A stretch of DNA of 64,000 bases from the NCBI RefSeq assembly GCF_024508335.1, contig NZ_CP101988.1, positions 2,542,001 to 2,606,000 of the forward strand. The letters are read 5' to 3'. A model generated the notes under the pieces. That model worked only from the letters and a program-made list of their open reading frames with translations, ran no database searches and had not been told where the DNA came from. A program made the position numbers and the translations under genes. This DNA is from Cellulomonas chengniuliangii. GTDB taxonomy: Bacteria > Actinomycetota > Actinomycetes > Actinomycetales > Cellulomonadaceae. Position 1 is the stretch's first letter, and each line of letters begins with the position of its first letter. Shown here piece after piece: positions 1,410 through 63,400 of this stretch.

Positions 1410-1416
1410 CGCCACT

Positions 1417-8703: not shown

Positions 8704-9966
8704 ATGACGGCAGTGCGCGCCGAGAACGTGTACAAGGTCTTCGGCCGACGGCCCGCTGAGGCCGTGCGGAGGCTCCGCGAGGGCGCCGGTCGCGACGAGG
8801 TCAGGGGGCACGGGACCGCCGCCGTGATCGACGCGAGCTTCGAGGTGGCGAGCGGCGAGACGTTCGTGGTCATGGGCCTGTCGGGCTCAGGCAAGTCCAC
8901 GTTGATCCGCATGCTCAACGGCCTCGCCCACCCCACCGCCGGCCGCGTCCTGCTCGGCGACGCCGACCTGTCGGCAGTGCGCCCCAAGGAGCTCCGGGAG
9001 CTCCGCCAGCGCCGCGTCAGCATGGTCTTCCAGCACTTCGCGCTCCTGCCGCACCGCTCGGTCATCGACAACGCGGCCTACCCCCTCGAGATCCAGGGCG
9101 TCGACCGCGCCGAGCGCCGTCGCCGTGCGGGCGAGGCGCTCGAGCTCGTCGGCCTCGCGCAGTGGGCTGACCGGCTCCCCTCCCAGCTGTCGGGGGGCAT
9201 GCGGCAGCGGGTCGGGCTCGCCCGGGCCCTCGCCGCCGACACCGACGTGCTGCTCATGGACGAGGCCTTCTCCGCGCTCGACCCCCTGATCCGCCGGGAG
9301 ATGCAGGACCAGCTCCTCGAGCTGCAGCAGGCCCTCGGGAAGACGATCGTCTTCATCACCCACGACCTCAACGAGGCCATGCACCTGGGCGACCGGATCG
9401 CCGTGATGCGCGACGGGCGCATCGTGCAGGTCGGCACGAGCGAGGAGATCCTCTCCGACCCCGCGAACGACTACGTGGCGCAGTTCGTCGCCGACGTCGA
9501 CCGCACCCGCGTGCTCACGGCCTCCTCCGTGATGCAGCCCGCCCGTGCCGTGGTGCCGCTCACCGGCGGCCCCCGTCTGGCGCTCCGCACCATGCGCGAC
9601 CAGCAGGTGTCCGCCGCGTACGTCGTCGACAAGTCGCGTGCGCTGCGCGGGGTGGTGCACGACGCCGACCTCGTCGCCGCGCTCCGCTCCGGCGCGGACA
9701 CGCTCGCCGGGCTGATCCGCACCGACGTCGCACCCGTCTCCCCCGACGCCGCGCTGAGCGAGCTCTTCGCCCCCGCCGCCGAGTCGTGGCTGCCGCTCCC
9801 CGTGACCGATGACGGAGGGCGCCTGCTCGGGGTCATCCCCCGGGCCACCCTGCTGGAGGCCATGGCGCCGCCCGAGCAGACCCCGCCCCGCGGCACGCCC
9901 GCCGTCTCGGAGGCTCCCACCGGCGCCCCCACCCCGAACGACGACGCCACGGCGGTGACGGCATGA
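8704..9966 (+). CDS. proV: Glycine betaine/proline ABC transporter, ATPase with CBS region
   Basis: 420 residues. Walker A GLSGSGKST (about 58-66), signature LSGGMRQRVGLARAL and Walker B VLLMDEAFSALDP identify an ABC importer ATPase of the ProV/OpuAA type. A C-terminal region (about 275-385) resembles the tandem CBS domains through which these ATPases sense ionic strength. The ATG at 8704 follows a GAGGTGACC ribosome site. The stop overlaps the proW start by 4 bases (ATGA). A basic insertion at about 15-40, between the first strand and the Walker A region, is as expected for this subfamily. The last 30 residues are Pro/Thr/Ala rich. Confidence 0.93.
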   Translation: MTAVRAENVYKVFGRRPAEAVRRLREGAGRDEVRGHGTAAVIDASFEVASGETFVVMGLSGSGKSTLIRMLNGLAHPTAGRVLLGDADLSAVRPKELRELRQRRVSMVFQHFALLPHRSVIDNAAYPLEIQGVDRAERRRRAGEALELVGLAQWADRLPSQLSGGMRQRVGLARALAADTDVLLMDEAFSALDPLIRREMQDQLLELQQALGKTIVFITHDLNEAMHLGDRIAVMRDGRIVQVGTSEEILSDPANDYVAQFVADVDRTRVLTASSVMQPARAVVPLTGGPRLALRTMRDQQVSAAYVVDKSRALRGVVHDADLVAALRSGADTLAGLIRTDVAPVSPDAALSELFAPAAESWLPLPVTDDGGRLLGVIPRATLLEAMAPPEQTPPRGTPAVSEAPTGAPTPNDDATAVTA

Positions 9967-47476: not shown

Positions 47477-49993
47477 CTAGTCCTCCTCGGGGCCGGTCTT
47501 GCCGGTGGTGACCCGTCGGACCCTGCCCGCCGCACGGCGTGCGACTTCCTTGACCCCGCCCGCAGCGAGGTACTCGCGCATCAGCGCGACGTCAGACCGC
47601 ACACCACCGCGAGGCTTGGCGAACGGGCGAGCCGTCGACGCGCCCGCACCAAGGACGTGTTCCAGGTCGGCCGCGCGGCGCGGCAGACGACAGAACGCGA
47701 CGAGCGGCTCGAGGACGTTCTGCCACGTGTACTGCTGCGCCACCGCTGCGACGTTCGCCTTCGCCCGCGCGATTGCCGCCTCGTCGAACAAGTAGGTCTC
47801 CAACGCGGCCTCGAGCGCGTCAACGTCCTTGGGCGGCACTGTGGCCCCCAGCCCATGCTGGTCGATGACCGTCGCGAAGGTGTCCCCTTCTGTGGCGACG
47901 ATCGGCAGGTTGGCCCACAGGTAGTCGAGGATCCGTGTCCGGAAGCTGAAGGCCGTCTCGATGTGGTGGAAGTGCGTCGAGACGCCCAGGTCCCCATCCA
48001 GCAGGTAGTCGGCGCGCTCCGCATAGGGCACCCAGCCCTCATTGAAGAACACATGCGTCCCGGTGAGGCCGAGCTCGTCGGAGAGCTGCTGCAACTCCCA
48101 GGCGATCTTCATGTCGGGCACGCCGGGGTTCGGGTGCTTCAGGCCCATGAAGTAGAGACGAACATCAGGGTGCCGAACCCGGAGCCGATCCACGGCGCGC
48201 ACGAGCGTGAGCGGGTCGAACCAGTTGTAGACGCCGCCGCCCCAGATGATGACCTTGTCGTCGAGGCCGATACCCGGCACGACGCCCTTGATCGCGTGCC
48301 GCGACTGGACGGGCGGCTCGCCAGGGATCCCGAAGGGCACGACGCCGACGAGCCCGCCCAGGCTCTCGTCCTCGTCGTAGACCGCCGCGTTGATCCGGCC
48401 CTGGCCCGCGAGCTGGCCGAGCCAGAAGTCACGCTGCTTCTCCGAGGCGCACACCACGTAGTCGGCTCGGCGCAACTGGTCGTTGAGCACGCGCGTCGTC
48501 TCACGGATCGACACGGCCCGGCCCCCGGCCCCGAGGTCCTTGGCCTGCTCGAGCTGCTCGAGGTGCATCGGGTCGTAGACGTCGGCGACCAGGATCTTCG
48601 AGCTTCCCATCAGCCATGGCGCGGCTTCGAGGAGGAAGCCCTGGAAAACGATGACGTCGGCCCAGTCGGTATGCTCGCGGAGCCTGACCCCGCCATTGGC
48701 GACCACGACGTCGAACGTCTCGCTGGTGACCTTCGCGCCTGCCGTCGACAGCAGCCGGACGTCGTGCTCTGCTCCCAGCGCCGTGGCGATCTCCCAGGCG
48801 CGGATCGCGGGGCCCGCCATCCTGTCGAGCAGCGGCTCACCGGTGACGACCAGAATCCGCTGCCGCGACACGAAGTGCTGCGCGATCCCGAACGCCTCGA
48901 CCAGGTGGTCGTGGCCCGCGAGATAACTGGGGATTCCGTAGGCGGGCTCGATCGCGTGACGGAACAGCGGGAAGAGCTCACGGTCGCTCCGTCGCCGCGA
49001 TGCTTGCAGCGTCGCGCGCGACTTCATGAGGCTCGGCAACTGCTCGACGAAGTAGTCGATCGCATACGGCCCGGTGAGGGCCATCTTGTCGACCTCGACG
49101 GTCCCGACCTTGTCGCCACCGGGCGACCGTTGCAGGTCGAGCAGGGTCGCGTCGGTGTCGGTGCGGGCGATCGAGCGCCGCACGGCGAGAGCCATCGCGG
49201 CCGGCAGCGCCTTCGCGAGCGACTCGTCGTCGAGGTTCTTGTACATGGACATCAGCGCGTTGCGCTCGAGCAGGTAGCTCTCGCGGAAGTCGCCGAACTT
49301 CTTCATCGTCACGTGGTGGCGGTGGTACGCCACCGACTCCGGGACGTAGCGGACCCGGTAGCCCAGCAGGTTCAGCCGCCAGCCCAGGTCGACGTCCTCG
49401 TAGAACATGAAGAACCGCTCGTCGAAGCCGCCGACCTCTCGGAACAGCCCCGTGGGCATGAACATCGCCGCGCCGGTGCCGAACAGCACGTCCTTCGGCG
49501 TGTCGTACTCGCTCGAGTCGGGCCATTCCGTCTCGCGCTTGTAGCCCATCCCGAACCAGGTCAGCGAACCGTCGACGTAGTCGACCTTCGTCCCTTCCCA
49601 GTCCAGCACCTTGCTGGCCACCGCGCCGATGGTCGCGTCGGCGCTCATCGCTTCCACAGCGGCGGAGATCCACTGAGAGCCGGGGCGGGCGTCATTGTTG
49701 ATGAAGCCCACCCACTCCCCCGAGCTGTGGGCGACTCCGAGGTTGCAGCCGCCGGCGAAGCCCAGGTTGCCACCGGACTCGACGACGATCGCCTGGGGGA
49801 ACGCCTCCCGGATGCGCCCGGCGGAGCCGTCCTGCGAGTCGTTGTCGACGACCACCAGTTCCAGCTGCTCAACCGGCCACTCGACCTCGTCGAAGTACCG
49901 CAGGCACGCGATCGTGTCGTCGGCGCCCTTGTAGTTGACCAGGACGACCGAGACGACGCCCTTGCGCGTCTCCCGGGTCGGAGCGGAGCTCAT
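47477..49993 (-). CDS. Bifunctional GT2-GT4 glycosyltransferase
   Basis: 838 residues. Residues 12-300 are a GT2 domain of rhamnosyltransferase type: VSVVLVNYKGAD, LVVVDNDSQDGS, GGNLGFAGGCNLG, FINNDARPG and FYEDVDLGWRL. Residues 380-790 are a GT4 domain with VVTGEPLLDRMAGPAIR, WGGGVYNWFDPLT and a TAFSFRTRILDYLWANLP block. A basic tail ends the chain. The GT2 and GT4 sites probably act in turn on the same chain, as in other fused capsule enzymes. The ATG follows GGGAGAGGC and overlaps the stop of the Gmd-like gene by 4 bases. Confidence 0.9.
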   Translation of the reverse strand: MSSAPTRETRKGVVSVVLVNYKGADDTIACLRYFDEVEWPVEQLELVVVDNDSQDGSAGRIREAFPQAIVVESGGNLGFAGGCNLGVAHSSGEWVGFINNDARPGSQWISAAVEAMSADATIGAVASKVLDWEGTKVDYVDGSLTWFGMGYKRETEWPDSSEYDTPKDVLFGTGAAMFMPTGLFREVGGFDERFFMFYEDVDLGWRLNLLGYRVRYVPESVAYHRHHVTMKKFGDFRESYLLERNALMSMYKNLDDESLAKALPAAMALAVRRSIARTDTDATLLDLQRSPGGDKVGTVEVDKMALTGPYAIDYFVEQLPSLMKSRATLQASRRRSDRELFPLFRHAIEPAYGIPSYLAGHDHLVEAFGIAQHFVSRQRILVVTGEPLLDRMAGPAIRAWEIATALGAEHDVRLLSTAGAKVTSETFDVVVANGGVRLREHTDWADVIVFQGFLLEAAPWLMGSSKILVADVYDPMHLEQLEQAKDLGAGGRAVSIRETTRVLNDQLRRADYVVCASEKQRDFWLGQLAGQGRINAAVYDEDESLGGLVGVVPFGIPGEPPVQSRHAIKGVVPGIGLDDKVIIWGGGVYNWFDPLTLVRAVDRLRVRHPDVRLYFMGLKHPNPGVPDMKIAWELQQLSDELGLTGTHVFFNEGWVPYAERADYLLDGDLGVSTHFHHIETAFSFRTRILDYLWANLPIVATEGDTFATVIDQHGLGATVPPKDVDALEAALETYLFDEAAIARAKANVAAVAQQYTWQNVLEPLVAFCRLPRRAADLEHVLGAGASTARPFAKPRGGVRSDVALMREYLAAGGVKEVARRAAGRVRRVTTGKTGPEED

Positions 49994-50964
49994 GCCTCTC
50001 CCTCAAGCAGTTGACGATCATGGTCGACCATGCGGGCAACCATGGTGCGGAAGTCGACTGTGGGCGACCACCCGAGCTCACGATGCGCCTTCGCCGCGTC
50101 TCCCACCTGTTCAGTGGCGTCCACCGGCCGCACGAAGGCTGGATCTGTGCTGACGTGAGCGGACCAGTCGTCAATGCCAGCGCGGGAGAAGGCCGCTGCG
50201 ACGAAGTCCTCGACCGAGTGGGTGCGCCCCGTCGCAACCACGAAGTCGTCGGCCACGACGTGGCGTGCCGCCCGCACGATGGCATCGACGTAGTCCGGGG
50301 CCCAGCCCCAGTCGCGCCGGGCATCGAGGTTCCCAAGGACCAGCTCACCGCGGCCATCCCGTGCGATCCGTGCGGCCGCCTGCGTGATCTTGCGCGTGAC
50401 GAAACTCGGCGGCCTGAGCGGGGACTCGTGATTGAACAGGATGCACGCGGCGACGTGCAGGCCCCGCCCTCGGTACACGTGCGCCATGTGGTGCGCATAG
50501 GCCTTCGCTGCACCGTACGGCGACACAGGACGGATCTCGGTCTGCTCGTCCTGCGGCGACACACGGGGCTGGCCGAAGATCTCCGCGCTCGAGGCTTGCA
50601 CCACCCGCACCGCACGCCCGCGTTGCTCCTGGAGCTGCCATGCGGCGGCGAAGATCTCCGCCGCGGCCAGTCCAGAGAGCAGGCCGGTCAGCACAGGCTC
50701 CTGCCAGGAGAACCCCACCGAGCTGACGCCGGCGAGGTGGTAGACCTCATCGGGATCCACCTCGCAGATCAGGCCCCGCAGCGCTGGCCCATCGGACAAG
50801 TCGACTTCGTGCAGCACCACCTCGGGGTGCGCCGAAGACAGGTCCCTGGCCAACCCGTCACCGGGCCGCACCATCCCGTGCACCTCGACGCCCTCGCGGA
50901 GGAGGCGCTGACGAAGAAAAGTGCCGTCCTGCCCGGTGATCCCGGTGACGAGCGCAACCGTCAC
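49990..50964 (-). CDS. GDP-mannose 4,6-dehydratase-type enzyme, possibly the 4-keto reductase (RMD)
   Basis: 324 residues. Extended short-chain dehydrogenase with GITGQDG, VYHLAGVSSVGFSW, SSAEIFG, SPYGAAKAYAHH (Tyr/Lys) and a NHESPLRPPSFVTRKITQA block, so clearly a Gmd relative and paralogue of the gene 4 bases upstream. Compared with that copy it is more diverged in the N-terminal nucleotide region. In bacteria making GDP-D-rhamnose, gmd and the related reductase rmd are adjacent, so this may be the reductase; a second dehydratase is the alternative. GTG start at 50964. Confidence 0.78.
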   Translation of the reverse strand: MTVALVTGITGQDGTFLRQRLLREGVEVHGMVRPGDGLARDLSSAHPEVVLHEVDLSDGPALRGLICEVDPDEVYHLAGVSSVGFSWQEPVLTGLLSGLAAAEIFAAAWQLQEQRGRAVRVVQASSAEIFGQPRVSPQDEQTEIRPVSPYGAAKAYAHHMAHVYRGRGLHVAACILFNHESPLRPPSFVTRKITQAAARIARDGRGELVLGNLDARRDWGWAPDYVDAIVRAARHVVADDFVVATGRTHSVEDFVAAAFSRAGIDDWSAHVSTDPAFVRPVDATEQVGDAAKAHRELGWSPTVDFRTMVARMVDHDRQLLEGEA

Positions 50965-50968
50965 TTGG

Positions 50969-51955
<987 letters not shown>

Positions 51956-52053: not shown

Positions 52054-53001
52054 GTGTCGACCCCCCCATTCGTATCCTTCGCCCAGAACGGCGAGGACGT
52101 CGTCCTCTGGCGTGTTCTACACAGCCTCCCCCAGGGCAGGTATGTCGAGGTGGGGGCGAACCATCCCCGTGTCGACTCCATCTCACGCGCCTTCTATGAC
52201 CGTGGCTGGTCGGGCATCACCATCGAGCCCGTCCCCCACTTCGCAGACCTCCATCGTGAGGAGCGCCCTCGTGACCGCTTCGTCGAAGCAGCGGTGAGCA
52301 GCACCCCAGAGGCGCACATCCAGCTGCACATGGTGAAGGGCACGGGCCTGTCGACTGTCGTCGACGCCGTGAGCTCGGAGCATGCGCGAGCCGGCATCGC
52401 GCATGAGGACATCACCGTGCCCGTCGTGCGGCTCGACGACCTGCTCGACGACGCGGGCTGGCAGGGCGAGGACATCCACTTCGTCGTGATCGATGTGGAA
52501 GGCGCCGAGCGCTCCGCGCTCGAGACCATCGACCTCCGCAAGTGGCGGCCGTGGATCCTCGTGATCGAGTCGACGGCGCCCAACTCCACGACGCCGACCC
52601 ACGATGAGTGGGAGGAGCTCGTCGTGGACGCCGGCTACGAGTTCTGCCTCTTCGACGGCGTGTCTCGGTTCTACCTGGCGCAGGAGCACGCGGCGCAGCT
52701 CCGCGCCGCACTGTCCTACCCCGTATGCGCCCACGACGAGTTCGTCCGCGCACACGACCTTGCGCTCAAGGCCGAGCGGGAGGCGCTGCTCGACCAGGTC
52801 GTGCACTGGCGCACCACCGCCCTCGCCGGTTGGGCGGAGATCGCTGCCAAGACCGAGCCGGACGTCGATCCGGCCCTGGAGCAGGAGGTGGAGCGGCTTC
52901 GGGCGGAGCTCGCCGCCATGCACGAGACGCTGTCGTGGAAGGTCACAGGAGGGCTTCGGCTCGCGCGGCGAGCCATGGGAGCGGCGAGGCGCTCACGATG
53001 A
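52054..53001 (+). CDS. FkbM-family methyltransferase
   Basis: 315 residues from the leaderless GTG at 52054. SAM-binding core: QNGEDVVLWRVL, YVEVGANHP motif I, an IEPVPHFADL strand, and VVIDVEGAERSALETIDL, all typical of FkbM-type O-methyltransferases that modify sugars. The C-terminal 60 residues form a coiled-coil-like helix (DPALEQEVERLRAELAAMHE) followed by a WKVTGGLRL motif often found at the end of glycan-locus proteins. It overlaps the next GT4 gene by 4 bases, so the methylated substrate is probably the product of that gene pair. Confidence 0.87.
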   Translation: MSTPPFVSFAQNGEDVVLWRVLHSLPQGRYVEVGANHPRVDSISRAFYDRGWSGITIEPVPHFADLHREERPRDRFVEAAVSSTPEAHIQLHMVKGTGLSTVVDAVSSEHARAGIAHEDITVPVVRLDDLLDDAGWQGEDIHFVVIDVEGAERSALETIDLRKWRPWILVIESTAPNSTTPTHDEWEELVVDAGYEFCLFDGVSRFYLAQEHAAQLRAALSYPVCAHDEFVRAHDLALKAEREALLDQVVHWRTTALAGWAEIAAKTEPDVDPALEQEVERLRAELAAMHETLSWKVTGGLRLARRAMGAARRSR

Positions 53002-54542
53002 CCTCGACGATCGAGGCGTCCGCTGTGTTGACGGCCCTCGACCAGCGGTTGTTGACGGCGGCCACTGTGCTGGCGCCGCAAGCCGTTCCCGCGCCTCTGC
53101 CCACGGCAGTCGGCGAGGTGTCTGCCGCACTCCTGCCCACCCTCATCGCCGCCTGTCGAGGCGCCGACAAGCATGACGCCCGATGGCTCGTCTGGACAGC
53201 GGTGACCGGGACCTTCCCCACGCCGAACTCGCATCGGCGGTTCTCCCGGCGCCTTGAGCTCGTGCCCGATCACGTGGCGGAGACGTGGCTACTGGAGTGT
53301 GCGCTCGCACCCGCGCATCGACGATCGGCCCGCCTCCCGATGAGCCTCGTCGCGCACGGCGTCGTGGCCGACGTCGACTTCTGCGCACGCCATGACACTC
53401 ATACGGGTATCCAGCGCGTTGTGCGCGGTGTGATGCCGAGGTGGGCGAGCGCGCATGACATCACCGCTACCGCGTGGGTGGACGACTACACCGCGATGCG
53501 CAGCCTCGCCCCCCACGAGCACACCCGCGTCTTCCAGCACCAGGAGTCGCTGGCGAACGCTGTCGACGACCTGACACCACGCGCCGAGGGCCAGCTCGTC
53601 GTGCCCTGGAAGAGCGTCGTCGTCCTGCCTGACGTCCCCAACCCGGGGAGCAGCGACGCGCTGTCGGCGCTCGCCCAATTCTCGGGGAACACGCTGTCGC
53701 TGATCGGGTACGACATGATCCCCGTCACCAGCGGCGAGACGCGCCCCCCAGCCGACTCGGTCACCTTCGCGCAGTATCTGACCGTCGTGAAGCACGCGCA
53801 CCGAGTCGCCGGCATCAGCAGGTCGGCGACGACCGAGTTCGCCGGGTACGCGAGCGCGCTGAGCGCCCAGGGCATGGTCGGCCCGCACGTCACCGAAGTG
53901 CCGCTCACCGAGGAGGCCCCGAGCCCCGAGGCGGGCGATCGGACGCCTCACCAGCGGGAACGCCCGCTCGTCGTCTGCATCGGGACGCATGAGCCGCACA
54001 AGAACCACCGGACGATCCTGCACGCGGCCGAGCGGCTGTGGCGTCAAGGCCTGGACTTCGAGCTGCGCCTCATCGGGAAGGGCGGCTGGACCGACGCCGC
54101 CATCGCACCCGGCATCGCGCGCCTCACAGCCGCTGACCGGCCACTCGACATCGTCCGCGATGCCTCCGACGACGAGCTGTGGGCCTCGCTTCGAGCCGCG
54201 GCCTTCACTGTCTTCATCTCGTTGCACGAGGGGTACGGTCTTCCTGTCGCCGAATCACTGTCATGCGGCACACCCGTCATCACGTCGAACTTCGGCAGCC
54301 AGCAGGAGATCGCTCAGAATGGCGGGTGCTTGACCGTGGACCCTCGGGACGACGACGCCGTGACCGATGCCATGCGCCTCCTCCTGACGGATGCCACGTT
54401 GAGGGACCGGCTGAGGGCTGAGGCCCTTGCACGCCCCCAGCGCACCTGGGACCAATACGCGGAGGAACTCTGGGAGGCGCTTGTGGCGCCCCCTGACAGC
54501 GCCTCGACCGACGCACGCACCGTGAGGGACAGCATTTCGTGA
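52998..54542 (+). CDS. GT4 glycosyltransferase with N-terminal extension
   Basis: 514 residues. A helical N-terminal part of about 110 residues precedes a GT4 domain: DTHTGIQRVVRGV acceptor loop, VVPWKSVVVLPD, LAQFSGNTLSLIGYDMIP, CIGTHEPHKNH hinge and LHEGYGLPVAESLSCG donor block. It is a paralogue of the following gene, which has the same VVPWK, LAQFSGN and EGxGLPVAESL landmarks in the same order, so the pair arose by tandem duplication. Overlaps both neighbours by 4 bases. Confidence 0.9.
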   Translation: MTSTIEASAVLTALDQRLLTAATVLAPQAVPAPLPTAVGEVSAALLPTLIAACRGADKHDARWLVWTAVTGTFPTPNSHRRFSRRLELVPDHVAETWLLECALAPAHRRSARLPMSLVAHGVVADVDFCARHDTHTGIQRVVRGVMPRWASAHDITATAWVDDYTAMRSLAPHEHTRVFQHQESLANAVDDLTPRAEGQLVVPWKSVVVLPDVPNPGSSDALSALAQFSGNTLSLIGYDMIPVTSGETRPPADSVTFAQYLTVVKHAHRVAGISRSATTEFAGYASALSAQGMVGPHVTEVPLTEEAPSPEAGDRTPHQRERPLVVCIGTHEPHKNHRTILHAAERLWRQGLDFELRLIGKGGWTDAAIAPGIARLTAADRPLDIVRDASDDELWASLRAAAFTVFISLHEGYGLPVAESLSCGTPVITSNFGSQQEIAQNGGCLTVDPRDDDAVTDAMRLLLTDATLRDRLRAEALARPQRTWDQYAEELWEALVAPPDSASTDARTVRDSIS

Positions 54543-56008
54543 AGCAAGCACCCAGGGGGCACCGTGCGGCGTGGAACGCTCGACTCCCCCTCCTTCATGC
54601 GACCCTGCATCCGCAGAGCCCTCGTGAGGGCTCTGCGGCGGATTCCAGCCAGCGGCTCGACGACATCATCGACATCCGGGACAGGTCGCACATCTGGCTG
54701 GCCCTGGCCATCCTGACCGGCCGCCTGCCCACGGACCAGACAGTCGTCGAGGTTGCCCGCGTCGCCGAGTTCGACGGTTGCGCGGCGGTGTGGAAGGCGG
54801 TCGCCGACGGGACGACGGACGAGTCCGCCGCGTGGCAGGTCCGCGTCGCCCACGGGGATGTCCTGGCGGATGTCGCGCACACCGCGTCCACGGTGCTCGT
54901 CACCGGGATTCAGCGGGTGGCCCGCGAGACGGTCCGGCGATGGCTGGCCGCTGACGGCTGCCTGCCGGTGTCCTGGACCAGGGACTTCCAGTCGATGCGA
55001 GACCTGTCGGACGTCGAACTGCGGCGCATCATGGCGGCGACCGCGGAGGAAGACACCGCCGAACGCGCCTCAGCGACGGTGGTGGTGCCCTGGAAGTGCA
55101 CCTACTTGCTGCCGGAGCTCGCGGCTGAGCTGAAACGCACCGGCCGCCTGCGGGCGCTCGCCCAGTTCTCCGGGAACCGCACCGGTGTCATCGGCTTCGA
55201 CTGCGTCCCCATCACCTCGGCTGAGACGACCCAACTCGGCTTCAGCGCGCTGTTCACGTCCAACCTCGCCGCCGTCCGCTCATTCGACCGAATCGCTGCG
55301 ATCTCTGGTGCGGCATGCGCCGAGTACCTCGGCTGGAAGTCCATGCTCGGCGCGATCGGCGTCGCTGGACCGGAGGTTCGCGCGGTCCAGCTCCCCGTGG
55401 AGATCGGGGAGACGACCGACGCCGACATCGCCGCCGCCCGCGACAGGTTCCTGGTCGGCGGTCTGCCGCTGGTGCTTGTCGTGGGAAGCCATGAGCCGCG
55501 GAAGAACCACCTGGCGGTCCTCCACGCCGCCGAGCTCCTGTGGCGCGAGGGTGTGGAGTTCACCCTCACCTTCGTCGGGGGAAACTCATGGGGTGGCGAG
55601 GAGTTCGCCAACCGATTGGCGGCGATGCAGCGGGAGGGCCGAGCGGTCGACGCAGTGCACCGCCTGTCAGACGCGCATCTCTGGGGGGCCTACCGCCTGG
55701 CCCGCTGCACGATCTTCCCCTCCGTGAACGAGGGCTTCGGCCTGCCTGTGGCCGAGTCACTCGCAGCCGGCACCCCTGCCATCACGTCGGCCTTCGGCAG
55801 CATGCTCGAGATCGCGTCCGAGGGGGGCGCGCTCACGGTCGATCCGCATGACGACCACCAGTTGGCCGACGCGCTGCGCGCCTTGCTCCTCCAGGACGAA
55901 CTGCACGACTCGCTGGTGCGCGCGGCGAAGGCCCGCCCCGAGCGCACGTGGGACACCTACGCCCGCGAGCTGTGGGACTTCCTCGTCGGGGACGACGCCC
56001 AGAACTAG
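54539..56008 (+). CDS. GT4 glycosyltransferase, tandem paralogue
   Basis: 489 residues. Same layout as the preceding gene: helical N-terminal part, STVLVTGIQRVARET, VVPWKCTYLLPE, LAQFSGNRTGVIGFDCVP, VVGSHEPRKNH, and VNEGFGLPVAESLAAG. Differences are concentrated in the acceptor-facing N-terminal half, as expected if the two copies act on successive acceptors with a similar donor. The GTG start overlaps the upstream stop by 4 bases. It ends 7 bases from the convergent SpoIID gene, so no terminator fits between. Confidence 0.9.
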   Translation: MKQAPRGHRAAWNARLPLLHATLHPQSPREGSAADSSQRLDDIIDIRDRSHIWLALAILTGRLPTDQTVVEVARVAEFDGCAAVWKAVADGTTDESAAWQVRVAHGDVLADVAHTASTVLVTGIQRVARETVRRWLAADGCLPVSWTRDFQSMRDLSDVELRRIMAATAEEDTAERASATVVVPWKCTYLLPELAAELKRTGRLRALAQFSGNRTGVIGFDCVPITSAETTQLGFSALFTSNLAAVRSFDRIAAISGAACAEYLGWKSMLGAIGVAGPEVRAVQLPVEIGETTDADIAAARDRFLVGGLPLVLVVGSHEPRKNHLAVLHAAELLWREGVEFTLTFVGGNSWGGEEFANRLAAMQREGRAVDAVHRLSDAHLWGAYRLARCTIFPSVNEGFGLPVAESLAAGTPAITSAFGSMLEIASEGGALTVDPHDDHQLADALRALLLQDELHDSLVRAAKARPERTWDTYARELWDFLVGDDAQN

Positions 56009-56014
56009 TGAGAC

Positions 56015-56639
56015 CTCAGGGGTAGCGGGCGACGGCCCGGTCGCGGTACTCCAGGCTCCCCGCGATACCGATGCGGACCGCGCCCTCACCCTGCGCCAGG
56101 AGCACGTTCGCCCACCCCGCCAGACCCGTCGGGTCAGGCCCCCGACCCAGGAACGTCTGGTAATACGCGCCCGCCCGCAACCGAGCCGCCTCCATCGAGA
56201 ACCAGATCCCGTCGACAGCCGCCCCGTTGCCCCGCTGCCGCATCACACCAGCCCACGTGGCCACCTCGCCATCGGTGGCCGGACGACCCAGCACCGTCTG
56301 GTACAGACGCCGAACATACCCCTCCGGAGTGCCACCAGAGATCTCGTAATACTCCACCGAGTCATAGAACCGCCGCTGCACATCGTCCACCGTGCGATTG
56401 CCCGCCCGGATCTCGCTCAACCACGCCGCCGCGCCCGCCGGCTCCGGCTCACGCCCCAGCACCTCCCGGTACGCCTTCGTCACCCGCGACGAGATGTACT
56501 CATCACTGCGCGTCAACGTGTTCACCAACGCCGACTGGCTCGTGCCCGACATCAACGACGCCGTCCACCCTGCCAACCCCGTCGGATCCGGCCCCCGACC
56601 CAACAAATCCTGATACAACGCCGTCACCACAGACCGCGA
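56015..56639. repeat. 625-bp perfect direct repeat, copy 1 (DUF4214 module)
   Basis: Identical, base for base by reading, to 60222-60846, in the same orientation 4207 bases away. It spans the last 207 codons and stop of the SpoIID gene plus one further base. The repeat begins at a serine codon that opens the DUF4214 module and ends with the stop, so its borders match the protein module. Confidence 0.95.
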
Positions 56640-57863
56640 CACGGCCGACGACGTCGTGGTCACCGTGAACCAGTCGCTCTTGAGCCCGAGTCGGCTGCGC
56701 ACCTGGTCGCCGGTGAACGTGGTGCGCGTCCCGTCTGCGGACGTGACGACGACTTTGGACACCCGCCCGCCGTCTGATCCGAGTCCGTTGCGTCCTGTGA
56801 CGGCGAACGCGCCGATCGTCCCGACGCCGAGCCTGGAGGCAACGTCCGCAAGGCTCATGGACACCGTCCATGAGCGGTTCGGGTTGAGCGTGACCGCGTC
56901 ACCTAGGTCGGGGACGGCGGGGAAGGCCCCACCCGCGGTGTGGCCACCTGTCGACGAGCTGAACTCGGTCCGAACCGGTGCGCTGCTGCCAGGCTTGACG
57001 CGGACCTGCGCCGCCGTCGCGGCGATGGCGGCGTCCGCGTAGCGGCCCTCCAGGCTCGTCCGCGCCCCGTTGGCCTGCTTGAAGGCGGCGCCCTGGTACA
57101 CCTGGCACGTCGTGGTGTCGCAGGTGCGGGCCCCGGAGCTGCGCGTGCCGGACAGCGCGTAGCTGCGCGCGGCGACGGCCTGCGCCTTCAGGGCCTCCAA
57201 TCCGTTGGGCAGGGCTCCCCAACTGTCGGGCGACTCTCGAGGCAGGACGCCACGTAGGTAGTCCTCAGTGGGGAGCACGTTGAAGGTGGACTGCTGACCT
57301 GTGCTGGCATGCCGCTGGACCGTGAGCACTCCCCGGTACGACCTCTCGCCCGACCCCTCGCAGACTCGAACGAGGTCGGCGTCTTGCTGTGACACGGTGC
57401 TGATCGTGACTGTTGCATAGGTGCCGAGCGTCGCCCAGCCACCAGAGCAGCTCGTTCCGGTCTGCACCACGAACTGGCCACCGCCAGCGCTGGCGACGCG
57501 CACTGCGCCATTGACTGGTTGGACTCCGTTGACTATCAGCCCGGCGCCAACCGCACGCAGCTCCGTGCCCGCCAGCGCCGTCAACTCGACGGAGATCGTC
57601 GCCTCTGCGGAGGAGCCCATCACTGTTCCGCCGTAGTAGTGGTCCAGGATCTGCACGTAGTTCCACCCGTGGTCCCGCGCGTATCCCAAGGCCCCGTACT
57701 GGCCCATGCCCCGCCCGTGCCCCCACCCCCGCCCGGTGAACGTGGCGTCGCCGTCGGCGCTCGCTGCCACAGCAGGCGAGGCGAGCGGTGCGGCGACCAA
57801 GGCGCCCACCAGCGCAGACGTGAGGAGCGTCGCGATGACGCGGGACTGCACGGAGAGTCGCAT
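56016..57863 (-). CDS. Secreted SpoIID/LytB protein with C-terminal DUF4214 repeats
   Basis: 615 residues. Signal peptide (about 1-33, ending AVAA). Residues 40-400 are a SpoIID/LytB domain: the GRGWGHGRGMGQYGALG motif at 44-60, then LPREsP with the probable catalytic Glu210 and an EALKAQAVAARSYAL helix (223-237). SpoIID enzymes cleave peptidoglycan glycan strands. Residues 409-615 are four DUF4214-type units, each with an LY/YY-x-LGRxPxxxGxxxW core. This tail is identical to that of the amidase at 60223. The ATG follows AGGGAAACCC. Divergent from wzm across 167 bases. Confidence 0.9.
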   Translation of the reverse strand: MRLSVQSRVIATLLTSALVGALVAAPLASPAVAASADGDATFTGRGWGHGRGMGQYGALGYARDHGWNYVQILDHYYGGTVMGSSAEATISVELTALAGTELRAVGAGLIVNGVQPVNGAVRVASAGGGQFVVQTGTSCSGGWATLGTYATVTISTVSQQDADLVRVCEGSGERSYRGVLTVQRHASTGQQSTFNVLPTEDYLRGVLPRESPDSWGALPNGLEALKAQAVAARSYALSGTRSSGARTCDTTTCQVYQGAAFKQANGARTSLEGRYADAAIAATAAQVRVKPGSSAPVRTEFSSSTGGHTAGGAFPAVPDLGDAVTLNPNRSWTVSMSLADVASRLGVGTIGAFAVTGRNGLGSDGGRVSKVVVTSADGTRTTFTGDQVRSRLGLKSDWFTVTTTSSAVSRSVVTALYQDLLGRGPDPTGLAGWTASLMSGTSQSALVNTLTRSDEYISSRVTKAYREVLGREPEPAGAAAWLSEIRAGNRTVDDVQRRFYDSVEYYEISGGTPEGYVRRLYQTVLGRPATDGEVATWAGVMRQRGNGAAVDGIWFSMEAARLRAGAYYQTFLGRGPDPTGLAGWANVLLAQGEGAVRIGIAGSLEYRDRAVARYP

Positions 57864-57968
57864 GGGTTTCCCTGGAGGCGGTTGGGTCGAGAGCCACAGT
57901 CATTTGACCATGACGGCCCCCGATCCAGACGGACCCCCACGCGCGCCGCGGCTCCCTGATCCGGAAGG

Positions 57969-57974
57969 TAGTCT
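57969..57974 (+). promoter_or_regulatory. -10 box TAGTCT upstream of wzm
   Basis: TAGTCT lies 56 bases before the wzm ATG in the divergent spacer (57864-58030), leaving a leader of about 50 bases with an AGGAAG ribosome site. A TTGACC at 57904-57909 is too far for a -35 of this box. Confidence 0.35.
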
Positions 57975-58030
57975 GACCCGGCCGATCCAGTACCCGGCGA
58001 CGGGCTGGCCTTGCCGGGAGCAGGAAGCAC

Positions 58031-58936
58031 ATGAACAACCAGAGCGAGATCCGCGACCTTCATCTGGCTCGCGAGCCACTTCGGGACGCTGGACCGCGTC
58101 CAGGGTTCATCGGGGGGACCCTGCAGTCGGTGCGCGACATCTTCACGCACCGCGAGCTGCTCAAGATGCTCGTCGGACGAGAGCTGAAGGCCAGGTACAA
58201 GGACAGCAGCCTGGGGTTCATCTGGAGCCTCGCGCGCCCCCTCGCGATGCTGCTGATCTACTACGTCGCGATCGGGAAGTTCCTCGGCGCGGCTAGGAAC
58301 ATCCCCGACTTCGCCATCTATATCTACACCGGCCTCACAGCGTGGCAGCTGTTCTCCGAGATCATCTCCAGCGGCACAGGCTCGATCGTGGCCAATTCCG
58401 GCCTGATCAAGAAGGTGTACCTCCCTCGTGAGGTCTTCCCGCTCAGCGTCATCGGGTCGGCGTTGTTCAACTTCTCCATCCAGCTCGTCGTGCTCATCGG
58501 GGCGACAATCGCGGTCGGCAACTTCCCCACGGGCGCCCGCTGGCTGTACCTCCCCCTGTCGCTCTTCGTGCTCCTCGTGTTCGCGACCGCGTTCGCCCTG
58601 CTCCTCTCGGCTGTCAACGTGTACTTGCGAGACGTGCAGTACCTGGTCGAGATCGTCATGATGATCGGATTCTGGCTGTCCCCCATCGTGTACTCGTGGA
58701 CCCAGGTCACCGACACGGTGAGTGCCAAGTGGATCCAAGAGCTGTACCTGGCCAACCCGATGACCCTGGTCACGATGGGCTTCCAGAAGGCGTTCTGGGT
58801 CTCCGGCGACAGCCAGGTCCTCCCCGACCTACTGCCGGAACGGCTTGCGATCGCAGGCGTGGTCGGCCTACTTCTGCTCTGGGTGTTCCAGCGCGTGTTC
58901 GCCCGCCTGCAGAGCAACTTTGCACAGGAGCTGTGA
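58031..58936 (+). CDS. wzm: ABC-2 type polysaccharide exporter, permease
   Basis: 301 residues. A 45-residue cytosolic N-terminus with a REL-LKMLVGRELKARYKDS amphipathic stretch, typical of Wzm/TagG permeases, is followed by six membrane helices (from about 60). LIYYVAIGKFLGAARN and the final LLLWVFQRVFARLQ stretch match O-antigen/teichoic-acid exporters. With Wzt it exports a completed polymer across the membrane. The ATG follows AGGAAG and its stop shares one base with the wzt start (TGATG). Confidence 0.93.
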   Translation: MNNQSEIRDLHLAREPLRDAGPRPGFIGGTLQSVRDIFTHRELLKMLVGRELKARYKDSSLGFIWSLARPLAMLLIYYVAIGKFLGAARNIPDFAIYIYTGLTAWQLFSEIISSGTGSIVANSGLIKKVYLPREVFPLSVIGSALFNFSIQLVVLIGATIAVGNFPTGARWLYLPLSLFVLLVFATAFALLLSAVNVYLRDVQYLVEIVMMIGFWLSPIVYSWTQVTDTVSAKWIQELYLANPMTLVTMGFQKAFWVSGDSQVLPDLLPERLAIAGVVGLLLLWVFQRVFARLQSNFAQEL

Positions 58937-60165
58937 TGAGCACCACCGAGGTCATCCGGATCGACAACCTCTCGAAGCGGTTCGTCATCCGCAAGGAGAA
59001 GTCCCTCAAGGAGCGGGTCGTCAATTTCGGCCGTTCGAATCTGCACAAGGACGACTTCTGGGCGCTGAGCGACGTCAACGTCTCGATCAGGTCCGGTGAG
59101 ACCGTCGGCCTTGTCGGGCCCAACGGGTCTGGCAAGAGCACGTTGCTGAAGATGATCGGCGGGATCCTGCAGCCCACGTCGGGCACGGTGCAGTTGCGAG
59201 GACGCCTCGCCGCGCTTCTGGAGCTGGGCGCCGGGTTCCACCCCGACCTCACTGGTCGGGAGAACGTGTACCTCAACGCCTCGATCCTGGGCATCAGCAG
59301 ACAGCAAACTGACCGCTACTTCGACGCGATCGTCGACTTCTCGGGTATCGAGCAATTCATCGACACGCAGGTCAAGTTCTACTCGTCCGGCATGTACGTG
59401 CGCCTTGCCTTCGCTGTCGCCGTCCATGTCGACCCCGACATCCTGCTGGTCGACGAGGTGCTGGCAGTCGGTGACGAGCCGTTCCAACGCAAGTGCCTGG
59501 AGCGGGTGCGGCAGTTCCAGCACGAGGGTCGGACCATCGTGCTCGTCACGCACAGCCTCGACCAGGTCGCTGACTTCTGCGATCGGGCGATCGTGCTGGA
59601 GAAGGGCAGGGTCGTCGCTGACGATGTGCCTCGCGTCGCTCTGCCCATCCTGCGCCGGGACTTCGAGGCGACCCGCCAAGAGGATGTCGACCGCGCCCAG
59701 GAGCGCGCCGTGGGTCCTGACGCCGTCGCCGCGCGCGCGCGCATCGACAGCGTGACGCTCACGTCAGGCCAGCAGGCCGTCGCCAGCGAGTCGGCGACCA
59801 TCACGCCTGGCGACGCGGTCACCGCCCATGTCCAGGTCACCGCGGAGGAGCCGCTGGAAGACTGGGTCTTGGGGATCGGCGTCGACACCCCGCTCGGCAC
59901 GTCCGTCTTCGGAACGAACACCAAGTTCCTCGACGTCCGCATGCCGAGGCTGGTGGGCACTGGCTCGTACGCGTTCAAGCTCGACGACGTGGCGTTGGGC
60001 GAGGGCGCGTACAACGTCCATGCGGCCCTCGCTCTCACGAGCGGCACGGAACTGCATCGCCTCACCCCTGGCGCCGGGCTGACTGTCGTCGGCGACGGGA
60101 CTTCGCAGGGGCACGTGCACATCAACACCGCCTTCGAGATTGACGAGGGCGTGCCGCTGTCCTAG
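58936..60165 (+). CDS. wzt: ABC polysaccharide exporter, ATPase with glycan-binding C-terminal domain
   Basis: 409 residues. ATPase part (1-240): Walker A GPNGSGKST (61-69), signature YSSGMYVRLAFAVA, Walker B DILLVDEVLAVGD, and the HSLDQVADFCDRAI switch. Residues 255-405 form an extra beta-sandwich-like domain with TPGDAVTAHVQV and GVDTPLGTSVFGTNT strands, the Wzt_C layout that recognises the terminal sugar of the polymer to be exported. Its presence means the polymer is probably capped or specifically modified, for example by the FkbM methyltransferase nearby. A strong hairpin terminator follows. Confidence 0.94.
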   Translation: MSTTEVIRIDNLSKRFVIRKEKSLKERVVNFGRSNLHKDDFWALSDVNVSIRSGETVGLVGPNGSGKSTLLKMIGGILQPTSGTVQLRGRLAALLELGAGFHPDLTGRENVYLNASILGISRQQTDRYFDAIVDFSGIEQFIDTQVKFYSSGMYVRLAFAVAVHVDPDILLVDEVLAVGDEPFQRKCLERVRQFQHEGRTIVLVTHSLDQVADFCDRAIVLEKGRVVADDVPRVALPILRRDFEATRQEDVDRAQERAVGPDAVAARARIDSVTLTSGQQAVASESATITPGDAVTAHVQVTAEEPLEDWVLGIGVDTPLGTSVFGTNTKFLDVRMPRLVGTGSYAFKLDDVALGEGAYNVHAALALTSGTELHRLTPGAGLTVVGDGTSQGHVHINTAFEIDEGVPLS

Positions 60166-60173
60166 CCAACGCC

Positions 60174-60212
60174 GCTGGGGCCTGCCGGGAGCGATCCCCG
60201 GCAGGCCCCAGC
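60174..60212. terminator. Bidirectional hairpin terminator between wzt and the amidase gene
   Basis: A perfect 16-base-pair GC-rich stem (arms GCTGGGGCCTGCCGGG and CCCGGCAGGCCCCAGC) with a 7-base loop lies in the 57-base convergent spacer. It starts 8 bases after the wzt stop and lies 10 bases from the amidase stop on the other strand, so it can end transcription from both sides. Confidence 0.85.
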
Positions 60213-60221
60213 GGGCGGAAG

Positions 60222-60846
60222 CTCAGGGGTAGCGGGCGACGGCCCGGTCGCGGTACTCCAGGCTCCCCGCGATACCGATGCGGACCGCGCCCTCACCCTG
60301 CGCCAGGAGCACGTTCGCCCACCCCGCCAGACCCGTCGGGTCAGGCCCCCGACCCAGGAACGTCTGGTAATACGCGCCCGCCCGCAACCGAGCCGCCTCC
60401 ATCGAGAACCAGATCCCGTCGACAGCCGCCCCGTTGCCCCGCTGCCGCATCACACCAGCCCACGTGGCCACCTCGCCATCGGTGGCCGGACGACCCAGCA
60501 CCGTCTGGTACAGACGCCGAACATACCCCTCCGGAGTGCCACCAGAGATCTCGTAATACTCCACCGAGTCATAGAACCGCCGCTGCACATCGTCCACCGT
60601 GCGATTGCCCGCCCGGATCTCGCTCAACCACGCCGCCGCGCCCGCCGGCTCCGGCTCACGCCCCAGCACCTCCCGGTACGCCTTCGTCACCCGCGACGAG
60701 ATGTACTCATCACTGCGCGTCAACGTGTTCACCAACGCCGACTGGCTCGTGCCCGACATCAACGACGCCGTCCACCCTGCCAACCCCGTCGGATCCGGCC
60801 CCCGACCCAACAAATCCTGATACAACGCCGTCACCACAGACCGCGA
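60222..60846. repeat. 625-bp perfect direct repeat, copy 2 (DUF4214 module)
   Basis: Second copy of the sequence at 56015-56639, in the same orientation. It covers the last 207 codons and stop of the amidase gene plus one base. Outside the repeat the two genes share no obvious nucleotide similarity. Confidence 0.95.
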
Positions 60847-62154
60847 AGCCCCGTATTGCTGGCTGTCGAAGTACGTGCGCGCCGTCGCCCGAATACCGGG
60901 CAAGGCCGCCATGCCCCCGTTCCCGGGGCATGCCGTGTACGAGACGTCACGGTGGCCGAACACCCGTGGGAGGGTGACGGTGGTGTTCTTGTACCTCGCG
61001 TTCTCACCCGCACCCGTCGTGTAGGACATCGATCCTTGAGGGTTGACGTTGTACGCGGCTAGACGCACTCCGATGATGCTGGCGACGGCGCGTTCCATTG
61101 CCAAGGGTGGCGCCGCGTCGTACGTGCCGAGCATCGAGACTCCGACGGTGCCGGTGTTGAAGCCTCCGGCATGGACGCCGATCACGGCCTCGGTCAGGCT
61201 GTTCGCGCGGCCCTCGTAGAGGTTCCCCCACTTGTCCACAACGAAGTTGTAACCGAGGTCGCACCAGCCACGGCCGTCGATGTGGTAGCTCTGGTCGTTG
61301 CGTATCTGCTGCATCGCCTGCGCGACTGTGCTGTAGGCGTTGGAGCCAGCGGTGTGGTGCACCACGGCGCCGACCAGCGATCTCGCGACATCGGGTGCGC
61401 ACACTTGCGCGCGCGCCCCCCACTCCGCGCGGGTGATCACCCGCGGTGCCGAGGCGGCAGCGGGGACGACGCCGTGATCGACAACACTCACGAGACGCGT
61501 CGTCTGGGCGGCTGCCGCCGATCCAGTGGCTCCAGCAGCCGGCATGGAGGCCGGGGCGGCCGTCGGCACGCTGGCCAATTCCGTGCCGACCAGGGTGAGG
61601 GCGAGCCCGGTGGCGCCCTGTTCGCTGGCCTCGAAAGCGAGTTGGACGGCATCGGACTCTCCGAACCACACCGGTTCTGTGCCGCCGCGCCGTGACGAGG
61701 CAGCGTCGACGGTGCCAGGGTCAGGGGCGACGTCATCCACCTCGAGGTCGACCCAGTCCGACCAGGCGCCGTCCACCCGCGCCCGCACCTGGGCACCGAG
61801 GTCGGTGGCTTGTTGGCCCTCCGGCCAGGTCACCCCGACAGTCTGGAAACTGCCGGCCTCGAAGACCTCGGTCTCCACCCGGTCACCCGCGACCTGGTCG
61901 GCGACGATCACCTCGGGGCTCGACCGACCCCGCTCGAGGCTCTCGGACTCACGCACCTCGCCCTCGACGTCGATCCCAGGGACGACGATGTCGACCTGGG
62001 TGAGCGACGGCTCCCCCCCGGGGATCGTCGATGACACCGCGCGGGTCACGTCGACGGGATGCGATCGGGTGGCGGGCACCGCGGGTTCCACGGTGTGCGG
62101 GGGCGCGACCGCGAGCAGTGCTGCGACAACGATGAGGCGAACAAGCACTGTCAT
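60223..62154 (-). CDS. Secreted PGRP-type N-acetylmuramoyl-L-alanine amidase with C-terminal DUF4214 repeats
   Basis: 643 residues from the ATG at 62154 (AAGG ribosome site), which gives a signal peptide (about 1-28); an upstream in-frame ATG at 62199 does not. Residues 50-225 resemble the beta-rich lead of actinobacterial PGRP amidases. The PGRP/amidase_2 domain covers about 240-410: ITRAEWGARA, the zinc histidine in VVHHTAGSN, YNFVVDKWGNLYEGR, and the GHRDVSYTACPG zinc end. It cuts the stem peptide from muramic acid. Residues 437-643 are the four-unit DUF4214 module identical to that of the SpoIID protein across the exporter. Confidence 0.93.
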   Translation of the reverse strand: MTVLVRLIVVAALLAVAPPHTVEPAVPATRSHPVDVTRAVSSTIPGGEPSLTQVDIVVPGIDVEGEVRESESLERGRSSPEVIVADQVAGDRVETEVFEAGSFQTVGVTWPEGQQATDLGAQVRARVDGAWSDWVDLEVDDVAPDPGTVDAASSRRGGTEPVWFGESDAVQLAFEASEQGATGLALTLVGTELASVPTAAPASMPAAGATGSAAAAQTTRLVSVVDHGVVPAAASAPRVITRAEWGARAQVCAPDVARSLVGAVVHHTAGSNAYSTVAQAMQQIRNDQSYHIDGRGWCDLGYNFVVDKWGNLYEGRANSLTEAVIGVHAGGFNTGTVGVSMLGTYDAAPPLAMERAVASIIGVRLAAYNVNPQGSMSYTTGAGENARYKNTTVTLPRVFGHRDVSYTACPGNGGMAALPGIRATARTYFDSQQYGASRSVVTALYQDLLGRGPDPTGLAGWTASLMSGTSQSALVNTLTRSDEYISSRVTKAYREVLGREPEPAGAAAWLSEIRAGNRTVDDVQRRFYDSVEYYEISGGTPEGYVRRLYQTVLGRPATDGEVATWAGVMRQRGNGAAVDGIWFSMEAARLRAGAYYQTFLGRGPDPTGLAGWANVLLAQGEGAVRIGIAGSLEYRDRAVARYP

Positions 62155-62305
62155 GTCCAGACCTTGGCGGTGAGAGCAACGCGAGTCTCTGTCGGCCATG
62201 ACTTGCGGTCAAGGACCGCCACGCAGCTCGACCAACATCGTTGAGAATTGGCTGGCTCCACGCGCGGGCTCCGACCGGCGTGATCCCCTGTGAGATCATG
62301 TCCGC

Positions 62306-63400
62306 GTGCGGATCACCCTGGATGCGACTCCGCTGCTCGGAGCTCGGACCGGTGTCGGGCAGTATGTCCAGCACCTGGTCGCGGAGTTACCCGCCGCTAT
62401 CGCGCGACGCGACCTCGACGCCGAGGTGCGCGCCACGACCTGGACGGCACGGGGCTCGAGGCTGACCGATCTTCCTCAGGAGGTCGCCCAAGTCGGGCCG
62501 CGCGTCCCCGCGCGCCTGCTCCGCGAGCTCTGGCGCCGTGGCGACCACCCCCGCATCGAGACGCTGGTGGGCAGGACAGAGGTGTTCCACGGGACGAACT
62601 TCACCTCTCCACCGACCCACCGTGCCCGAGAGGTCGTCACGATCCACGACCTCACCTACGTCCTGCACCGGAGCACCGTGAGCTCGGCGAGCGTCCTCTA
62701 CCAGGAGCTGGTCCCCCGCGCCCTGGCACGCGGGGCGCATGTGGTGACGCCAAGCCACGCGGTCGCAGCGGAGGTCGCGGCCTTCTACGACCTGGACACC
62801 TCCCGGGTCACGGCGACGCCCCTTGGCGTCGAGCTCGACTGGTTCGACGCCACGCCGGCCTCTCCCGCCTGGCTGTCCACTCACGGCCTCCCCACGGACT
62901 ATCTCGTGTTCGTGGGCTCGCTCGACCCTCGCAAGAATCTGCCGACCCTTCTGGCCGCACACAGCCAACTCCGTGCCGAGCACCCCGACACTCCAGCCCT
63001 CGTCCTCGCGGGGCCTGCCGGGCGCGAGGCGTCGCTCGCCAACCGAGCCGGGCTCCACCTCACCGGGTGGCTGAGCACGCCGGATCTTCAAGCGTTGGTC
63101 GCCGGCGCACGGGCGCTCGTGCTCCCATCGATCGACGAGGGCTTCGGGCTGCCGGTCATCGAGGCCCTCGCGACCGGCCGGCCAGTCGTGACGTCGGACA
63201 TCCCCGCGCTCCGTGAGGTGGGCGGCCCCCACGCCGTGGTCGCTGACGCACTCGATCCCGCGTCTCTGGCCACAGCCCTGAGCGACGCGCTGCAACTCGC
63301 CGACGGCCCCGTGGACAGGGCGCGCCGCCGGGAATGGGCCCGCCGGTTCTCCTGGAGCGCGTTCGCGGACCGCACCCTCGACGCCTACCTCGCCTCATGA
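62306..63400 (+). CDS. GT4 glycosyltransferase
   Basis: 364 residues. GT-B fold: MRITLDATPLL opening with the TGVGQYVQHL acceptor loop, VTIHDLTYVLHR, VTPSHAVAAEVA, FVGSLDPRKNL hinge and IDEGFGLPVIEALATG donor block. The GTG start has no ribosome site and lies 6 bases behind a GATCAT element, using the same GTCCGC-GTG junction as the FkbM gene. It contains a rare TTA leucine codon (62387-62389). Overlaps the next GT2 gene by 4 bases. Divergent from the amidase gene across 151 bases. Confidence 0.9.
   Translation: MRITLDATPLLGARTGVGQYVQHLVAELPAAIARRDLDAEVRATTWTARGSRLTDLPQEVAQVGPRVPARLLRELWRRGDHPRIETLVGRTEVFHGTNFTSPPTHRAREVVTIHDLTYVLHRSTVSSASVLYQELVPRALARGAHVVTPSHAVAAEVAAFYDLDTSRVTATPLGVELDWFDATPASPAWLSTHGLPTDYLVFVGSLDPRKNLPTLLAAHSQLRAEHPDTPALVLAGPAGREASLANRAGLHLTGWLSTPDLQALVAGARALVLPSIDEGFGLPVIEALATGRPVVTSDIPALREVGGPHAVVADALDPASLATALSDALQLADGPVDRARRREWARRFSWSAFADRTLDAYLAS

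Follow-up and report, generated by a model that had tools for sequence, protein, structure and literature searches.

Matching DUF4214 tails on a SpoIID/LytB-domain enzyme and a PGRP-type amidase in Cellulomonas chengniuliangii and its family

Why do two wall enzymes with unrelated catalytic domains end in exactly the same 207 residues? The question is raised by a 64,000-nucleotide stretch of the Cellulomonas chengniuliangii genome (contig NZ_CP101988.1, positions 2,542,001 to 2,606,000 of the forward strand; hereafter the window), in which a SpoIID/LytB-domain protein (SP) and a PGRP-type amidase (PG) share an identical C-terminal DUF4214 tail. Probably, in our assessment, the tail is a swappable wall-address module, carried by the amidase and its lytic partner and kept alike on both by gene conversion.

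An exact repeat on two wall enzymes

Positions 56015-56639 and 60222-60846 of the window are identical at 625/625 bases, the surrounding sequence is unrelated, and the identity stops at both borders, reaching not even one base further on either side. Both copies lie on the minus strand, and each comprises 207 codons starting from a serine codon, a stop codon and one further base. An earlier, sequence-only reading of this DNA had described the same extent and borders and had called the remainder of the two genes unrelated, all of which holds. The pair is the sole direct repeat family of ≥60 nucleotides (nt) found in the window (seed 20), which contains no N, and two copies were found in the whole genome (3,571,554 bases, one contig). 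The repeat and its bearers are as follows.

56015..56639, minus strand: repeat copy 1, DUF4214 tail of the SpoIID/LytB gene (207 codons, stop and 1 base)
60222..60846, minus strand: repeat copy 2, identical DUF4214 tail of the PGRP amidase gene
56016..57863, minus strand: SP, SpoIID/LytB-domain wall enzyme of 615 residues with the DUF4214 tail (PF08486, TIGR02669)
57003..57299, minus strand: SpoIID domain match, SP residues 189-287 (Pfam match, coordinates converted)
60223..62199, minus strand: PG, PGRP-type N-acetylmuramoyl-L-alanine amidase with the DUF4214 tail, open reading frame of 658 residues, gene call starting at 62154 (PF01510)
60919..61371, minus strand: Amidase_2 domain match, PG residues 277-427 (Pfam match, coordinates converted)

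Both enzymes pass the cut-offs of their families: SP matches PF08486 (SpoIID) at 71.2 bits (cut-off 23) and TIGR02669 at 116.5 bits (cut-off 83.3), PG matches PF01510 (Amidase_2) at 58.0 bits (cut-off 26), and PF13946 (DUF4214) is matched by the two proteins at 97.9 and 94.7 bits (gathering threshold 23.2). SP fails TIGR02870, the equivalog of stage II sporulation protein D (86.3 versus 234.75 bits), and by these family scores is a relative of that protein, not the sporulation protein itself. The Pfam matches of PG do not include the SpoIIP family, the rest of the genome not having been searched for SpoIIP or SpoIIM. CWB2 repeats (PF04122), which were found on proteins of relatives, do not figure in the Pfam matches of the proteins in the window.

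Relatives were taken from a family set (Cellulomonadaceae) of 221 genomes, one per species, in which the present genome is G000. Between the tails of G000 and those of G028, the nearest to them, 43-44% of codons differ at the third position, so the absence of silent changes within G000 is not due to constraint. Exact copies could also be an assembly artefact, one copy being collapsed or a misplaced duplicate, and such repeats do break assemblies, as in G079 (about ten contigs), which is broken inside the tails. However, each copy in the window has flanks of its own, the reading frames on either side are intact, and the genome is one contig. Since identical or near-identical pairs also arise independently in other one- or two-contig assemblies (G183, G103, G110), misassembly is unlikely, and as a full account of the repeat we consider it extremely improbable. 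The sequence-only reading had ascribed the identity to recent gene conversion or to recent copying of the module onto the second enzyme. In G000 the two are indistinguishable, because the identity spans all of the homologous part; conversion is borne out in relatives, by sister pairs and mosaics.

Conversion and exchange of tails in relatives

Matches to the tail at an expectation value (E) of 1e-20 or better are present in 42/221 family genomes, and loci were fetched for the better matches rather than for all 42. At order level, matches at E 1e-30 are confined to 5/396 genomes (own included), three of these in the family. In the tail tree, the window tails fall in a clade designated M (24 rows, support 98/92), and further clades are designated S (SP tails) and P (PG tails). 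Ten genomes (G000 and nine further) carry an M tail on both PG and another wall protein nearby, which is SP in eight of them (G000, G028, G035, G045, G067, G079, G103 and G183). In the other two, G110 and G222, it is a protein without a named family besides the tail, and neither genome has an SP match at E 0.001. The nucleotide identity of the two M tails within a genome is 100% in G000 and G183, 99.7% in G110, 99.2% in G103, 94.0% in G028, 92.2% in G222, 83.1% in G045, 73.7% in G067 and 63.9% in G035. The G079 tails, cut by contig ends, are 98.6-100% identical in comparable pieces; only 69 residues of its SP tail are visible, and this tail was left out of the tree and the PG tail kept. At the protein level, the catalytic parts encoded by these genomes share 49-64% identity with their G000 counterparts. 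Tails of the same genome are sisters in eight of nine pairs in the tree, the G035 pair having no clear placement. The sequence-only reading had proposed a comparison of orthologues, and across the family the pairs within a genome are mostly each other's closest relatives and the genomes differ.

Two of the M pairs are plainly mosaic. Of the mismatches between the two G028 tails, 19 lie within the opening 100 nt, 9 in the 500 nt that follow and 9 in the closing 24 nt. Edge and core mismatch rates are 0.233 and 0.018 in G028 and 0.359 and 0.012 in G222, that is, a near-identical core with diverged ends, and the edge/core ratio between genomes has a mean of 1.04 and a maximum of 1.27 (36 pairs), the edge limits having been chosen after the mismatch positions had been seen. 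Permutation of the longest identical run gives p 2e-4 in both G028 and G222, 0.017 in G103 and 0.005 in G035, the last at a run of just 23 nt; it is not significant in G110 (0.22), G045 (0.06) or G067 (0.15). Internal tracts are not visible in these three genomes, nor in G000, where everything is identical.

Other tails undergo conversion as well. By its alignment, the clearest tract is that of locus L025, where an amidase and its partner (frames 486-3518 and 6311-9469, the former being the partner) have in common an unnamed KYPVKD-type tail of about 500 residues. Identity is 54-73% per 100 columns over 1,000 columns (about 65%) and then, across a sharp border, 92-99%, about 97% over the last 500; the genome of this locus (G015) has no DUF4214 match at E 0.001. 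In G223, six ChW repeats stand on both SP and PG, with 812/948 columns identical and a 140-nt perfect block (p 5e-4). A P-like DUF4214 tail is common to an FG-GAP protein, SP and PG of G167 (L094 4120-4740, 6486-7106 and 16666-17286) at 93-97% identity. The frames of G167 are broken within these tails, perhaps by sequencing errors. The mosaic pairs, the jump in L025 and the ChW block argue for gene conversion between tails within genomes, which we regard as well supported.

Concerted evolution via gene conversion between paralogous genes is a known general process. The tails resemble it in that copies within a genome are closer than counterparts elsewhere and mosaic tracts have sharp edges. 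Unlike the classic case, homology is limited to a C-terminal module, the catalytic domains of its bearers being unrelated, and modules of other families have also taken its place.

Exchange is evident among the SP proteins. SP catalytic domains with M tails, the label being taken from the tail tree, do not form a single clade (approximately unbiased test, p 4.24e-8; log-likelihood loss 207; at least 6 changes), and tails have thus been exchanged among SP domains. The same test on PG is not significant (p 0.104; at least 6 changes). When the SP of G103 is compared with that of its sister G106 in blocks of 40 residues, identity is 57-85% over most of the catalytic part and 22-38% over the tail, and both SP and PG of G103 have a tail type unlike that in G106 and G063. 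The tail states of SP and PG in 19 genomes are M and M in eight, S and M in two, S and P in nine, and M and P in none (Fisher p 7e-4; relatedness not removed).

One recent copying event in G000, in which the whole module passed from one gene to the other with no continuing conversion, would fit some of these patterns: the identity in G000 covers the entire module and nothing else, and the occurrence of an S tail on SP with an M tail on PG, but never of M on SP with P on PG among the 19 genomes, fits copying from PG to SP. Against this stand the internal tracts with unconverted ends in relatives (G028, G222 and L025) and the M tail on SP in eight genomes of four genus codes, which would require many separate recent copyings. 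We give this explanation little credence.

The partner protein that takes the place of SP in G110 and G222, and its counterpart in L025, is located as follows.

L039:6473-8356: partner wall protein, N-terminal part without a Pfam family
L038:6680-8269: partner wall protein, N-terminal part without a Pfam family
L025:486-3518: partner wall protein, N-terminal part without a Pfam family

Its own part matches no named Pfam family in G110 and G222 and no part is named in L025; it matches no NCBIfam family (G110, G222) and no PDB sequence (G110). A motif suggests that it is lysozyme-like, and the L025 partner was judged by eye to resemble those of G110 and G222.

Shared module families and the polysaccharide locus

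SP-like domains are present at E 1e-50 in 31/221 family genomes, and both tails are readable in 29, which leaves out G166 (SP runs off its contig) and G229 (a fusion). In 28 of the 29, one module family is common to SP and its nearest amidase, the exception being G064. The shared family is DUF4214 in 21 (among them G105, split over two contigs, and G079, seen in part), ChW in two and FG-GAP-like in five; of the FG-GAP-like calls, that of G129 was read from the sequence and the other four were made by Pfam, and many DUF4214 tails were assigned by BLAST to the window tail and tree placement rather than by individual Pfam scans. At 1e-50, no amidase is found in G179 or G185. The FG-GAP pairs are merely about 36-40% alike, and a common family therefore need not mean conversion.

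In some genomes, the two enzymes are a single protein. In G229, a single frame, which reaches the contig end, encodes an amidase followed by three CWB2 repeats and then SpoIID (L097:3798-7250). In a class-wide sample, SP is found at 1e-30 in 65/394 genomes, and among 20 loci chosen from it, mainly top matches and long frames, six have amidase and SpoIID in one frame, four have an amidase as neighbour and ten have no amidase in the fetched stretch. The six fused frames (L158, L160, L162, L163, L165 and L171) all come from one family code; in the four that were scanned, LGFP lies between the enzymes in two and fn3 in two. Among the neighbouring pairs, of which three were scanned (all but G724), SP and amidase have common FG-GAP-like tails in G633 and G810, and LGFP is on the amidase and no named tail on SP in G249.

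The genes around the pair belong to a polysaccharide locus, in which SP and PG flank a Wzm/Wzt-type ABC exporter and are accompanied by GDP-mannose 4,6-dehydratase (GMD) genes, an FkbM methyltransferase and glycosyltransferases. These neighbours are listed below.

49990..50964, minus strand: second GMD-like dehydratase/reductase (TIGR01472 263.1 bits, below the cut-off of 415)
50969..51955, minus strand: GMD (TIGR01472 418.2 bits, cut-off 415)
52054..53001, plus strand: FkbM-family methyltransferase (TIGR01444)
52998..54542, plus strand: glycosyltransferase GT4c (GT4-type NCBIfam matches, all below cut-off; synteny)
54539..56008, plus strand: GT4-type glycosyltransferase GT4b, converging on repeat copy 1 (PF00534; synteny)
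58031..58936, plus strand: ABC-2 polysaccharide exporter permease (Wzm-like), between SP and PG (PF01061)
58933..60165, plus strand: exporter ATPase with a Wzt_C domain (Wzt-like; PF00005 and PF14524 on an open reading frame starting upstream; gene call)
62306..63400, plus strand: GT4-type glycosyltransferase GT4a, diverging from the amidase gene (PF13692, PF00534)

The same locus contains, outside the window, two LytR-CpsA-Psr (LCP) genes and a purE-like gene. In the fetched stretches of 25 mapped genomes (own included), the first LCP family is present in 22/25, Wzm in 21/25 and Wzt in 22/25.

The tail varies with the accessory genes of this locus. After the near-duplicates G063 and G108 had been dropped, tail distance correlates with accessory gene content with catalytic distance held (r 0.31, p 8e-4, 22 genomes), and does so among M tails only (r 0.50, p 4e-4, 13 genomes) and P tails only (r 0.48, p 0.009, 9 genomes). 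Catalytic (amidase) distance does not follow gene content once tail distance is held, and the tail and catalytic distances of one gene are uncorrelated (0.08). One of three accessory biosynthesis cassettes lies directly at the tail side of PG in 11/11 genomes with P-type PG tails and in 0/13 with M-type tails; that place is occupied by other genes in G028, G035, G137, G110 and G222 and by a contig end in G079. Plain physical linkage was considered as the source of the covariation and rejected, as the accessory cassette of G000 lies on the catalytic side, yet the tail follows gene content and the catalytic domain does not; this rejection is limited in that the covariation among M genomes requires conserved families to be left out of gene content.

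Neutral conversion driven by proximity offers another account: homologous tails that are directly oriented and separated by 2-8 kb would be homogenised whenever similar enough, and would match without benefit. In 11 further genomes the SP tail (clade S) and the PG tail (clade P in nine, M in G034 and G036) are distinct subfamilies only 48-60% identical in nucleotides and are not homogenised, several of these pairs lying farther apart; drifting pairs exist (G035, G067 and G045), and conversion strikes several module types. Neutral conversion leaves unexplained the same module family on non-homologous enzymes in 28/29 genomes (nearest amidase), the joint tail change of SP and PG in G103 relative to G106 and G063, and the fusions; among M pairs, identity is also not predicted by how far apart the tails lie (Spearman -0.37, p 0.33, n=9). 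This rival remains serious because unmatched pairs are common, although we consider it unlikely.

Three findings weigh against a shared wall address. Many genomes lack matching tails, namely the 11 pairs just described and G035 (64%) and G067 (74%), which contradict the strong form of the earlier claim, that the two tails must be identical. If the best-scoring instead of the nearest amidase were taken, G125, G128 and G129 would differ in module family, their best-scoring amidases bearing CWB2-type repeats (by Pfam for G128, by eye for the other two). The covariation is sensitive to gene choice, falling to r 0.17-0.25 overall and near zero in M alone when only SP, PG and f61 are excluded. The milder suggestion of the sequence-only reading, that likeness of the tails is functionally relevant, gains indirect support from the 28/29 shared families, the fusions and the polysaccharide covariation.

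The tail might instead be a protein-protein assembly module that gathers both enzymes, or a third wall protein, as in phycobilisome linkers. The phycobilisome linker domain is its closest solved fold and sequence profile, and a sequence search of the PDB returned phycobilisome linkers and a few weak others. Profile PF00427 (cut-off 28.7) scores 30.2 on SP and 26.1 on PG with its identical tail, and no stretch passes alone; top matches in a viral fold library, mainly DUF4214 or unnamed proteins of phages or giant viruses, were uninformative. Linkers serve light-harvesting assembly, an unrelated context. An assembly role fits poorly with the CWB2, LGFP, ChW or FG-GAP modules found at the place of the tail or between the fused enzymes in further proteins of the SpoIID and amidase families, and with the covariation of tail type with accessory polysaccharide genes, sensitive to gene choice as that is; we judge it improbable.

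A candidate wall address and its counterparts

In the wall-address reading, the 207-residue tail would direct both enzymes to one place on the wall, where PG and SP, with one tail copy each, probably act in turn on the same glycan strands. Both genes lie within what is presumably the strain's wall-glycopolymer locus, with its nucleotide-sugar genes, glycosyltransferases, Wzm/Wzt and LCP genes, and our inference is that the tail would bind this glycopolymer, with selection for a common address on both enzymes. As the locus changes, the tail type would change independently of the catalytic domains, and conversion between nearby copies would keep the tails alike, the identity in G000 arising by conversion or recent whole-module copy. 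More tentatively, and with doubt prevailing, the tail may be an exchangeable tag matched to the strain's own glycopolymer, such that a change in the locus brings a change of the amidase tag, which conversion then writes onto the partner. Fusion of amidase and SpoIID, with one wall-binding module at the centre in some lineages, would be an alternative solution.

Two known systems are close to this scheme. In Clostridioides difficile, wall proteins share the CWB2 anchoring module, which recognizes the wall glycopolymer PSII, according to the available part of PMC4973711. CWB2 is likewise the amidase tail in G128 and separates amidase from SpoIID in the fused G229 protein. However, DUF4214 is another family with a putative ligand only, and near-identity by conversion is not mentioned for CWB2 in that part of the source (PMC4973711). 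During engulfment in the same organism, the amidase SpoIIP strips stem peptides and SpoIID then cuts the denuded glycan, and SpoIIM is described as joining the two, in the passages available from PMC6221140. By analogy, the amidase and SpoIID enzyme would cooperate here too, although the partner is of the Amidase_2 (PGRP) type and the locus is concerned with polysaccharide rather than sporulation. Attachment through a surface glycan is also described for RsaA of Caulobacter, whose N-terminal domain binds the O-antigen of lipopolysaccharide (PMC6978808, in part).

DUF4214 is a domain of unknown function, seldom named in the literature searched. The pattern suggests a testable role for it, namely to recognize the strain's wall glycopolymer, and points to the locus that would make the ligand. 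No description of tail conversion between wall enzymes was recognized in that literature, most subscription journals lying outside it. The family may also serve as a natural experiment in the co-evolution of wall-hydrolase targeting modules with surface glycans; in addition, adjacency, matched modules and fusion connect PGRP amidases with SpoIID-type enzymes outside sporulation. If the wall-address reading is true, two enzymes without common ancestry evolve one tail in concert.

We note that the direct repeats (window 56015-60846) bracket the SpoIID catalytic part and the Wzm/Wzt exporter, and recombination between them would delete both and keep the amidase intact. DUF4214 also occurs apart from the pair. 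The sole further DUF4214 protein found in G000 (E 0.001) is an FkbM methyltransferase with a single N-terminal match (L063:5361-6995; G000:C1:2631360-2632994). In G095, which has no SpoIID match, an M-clade tail lies at the N-terminal side of a beta-helix protein (L053:6403-8058), next to a paralogue that carries no tail.

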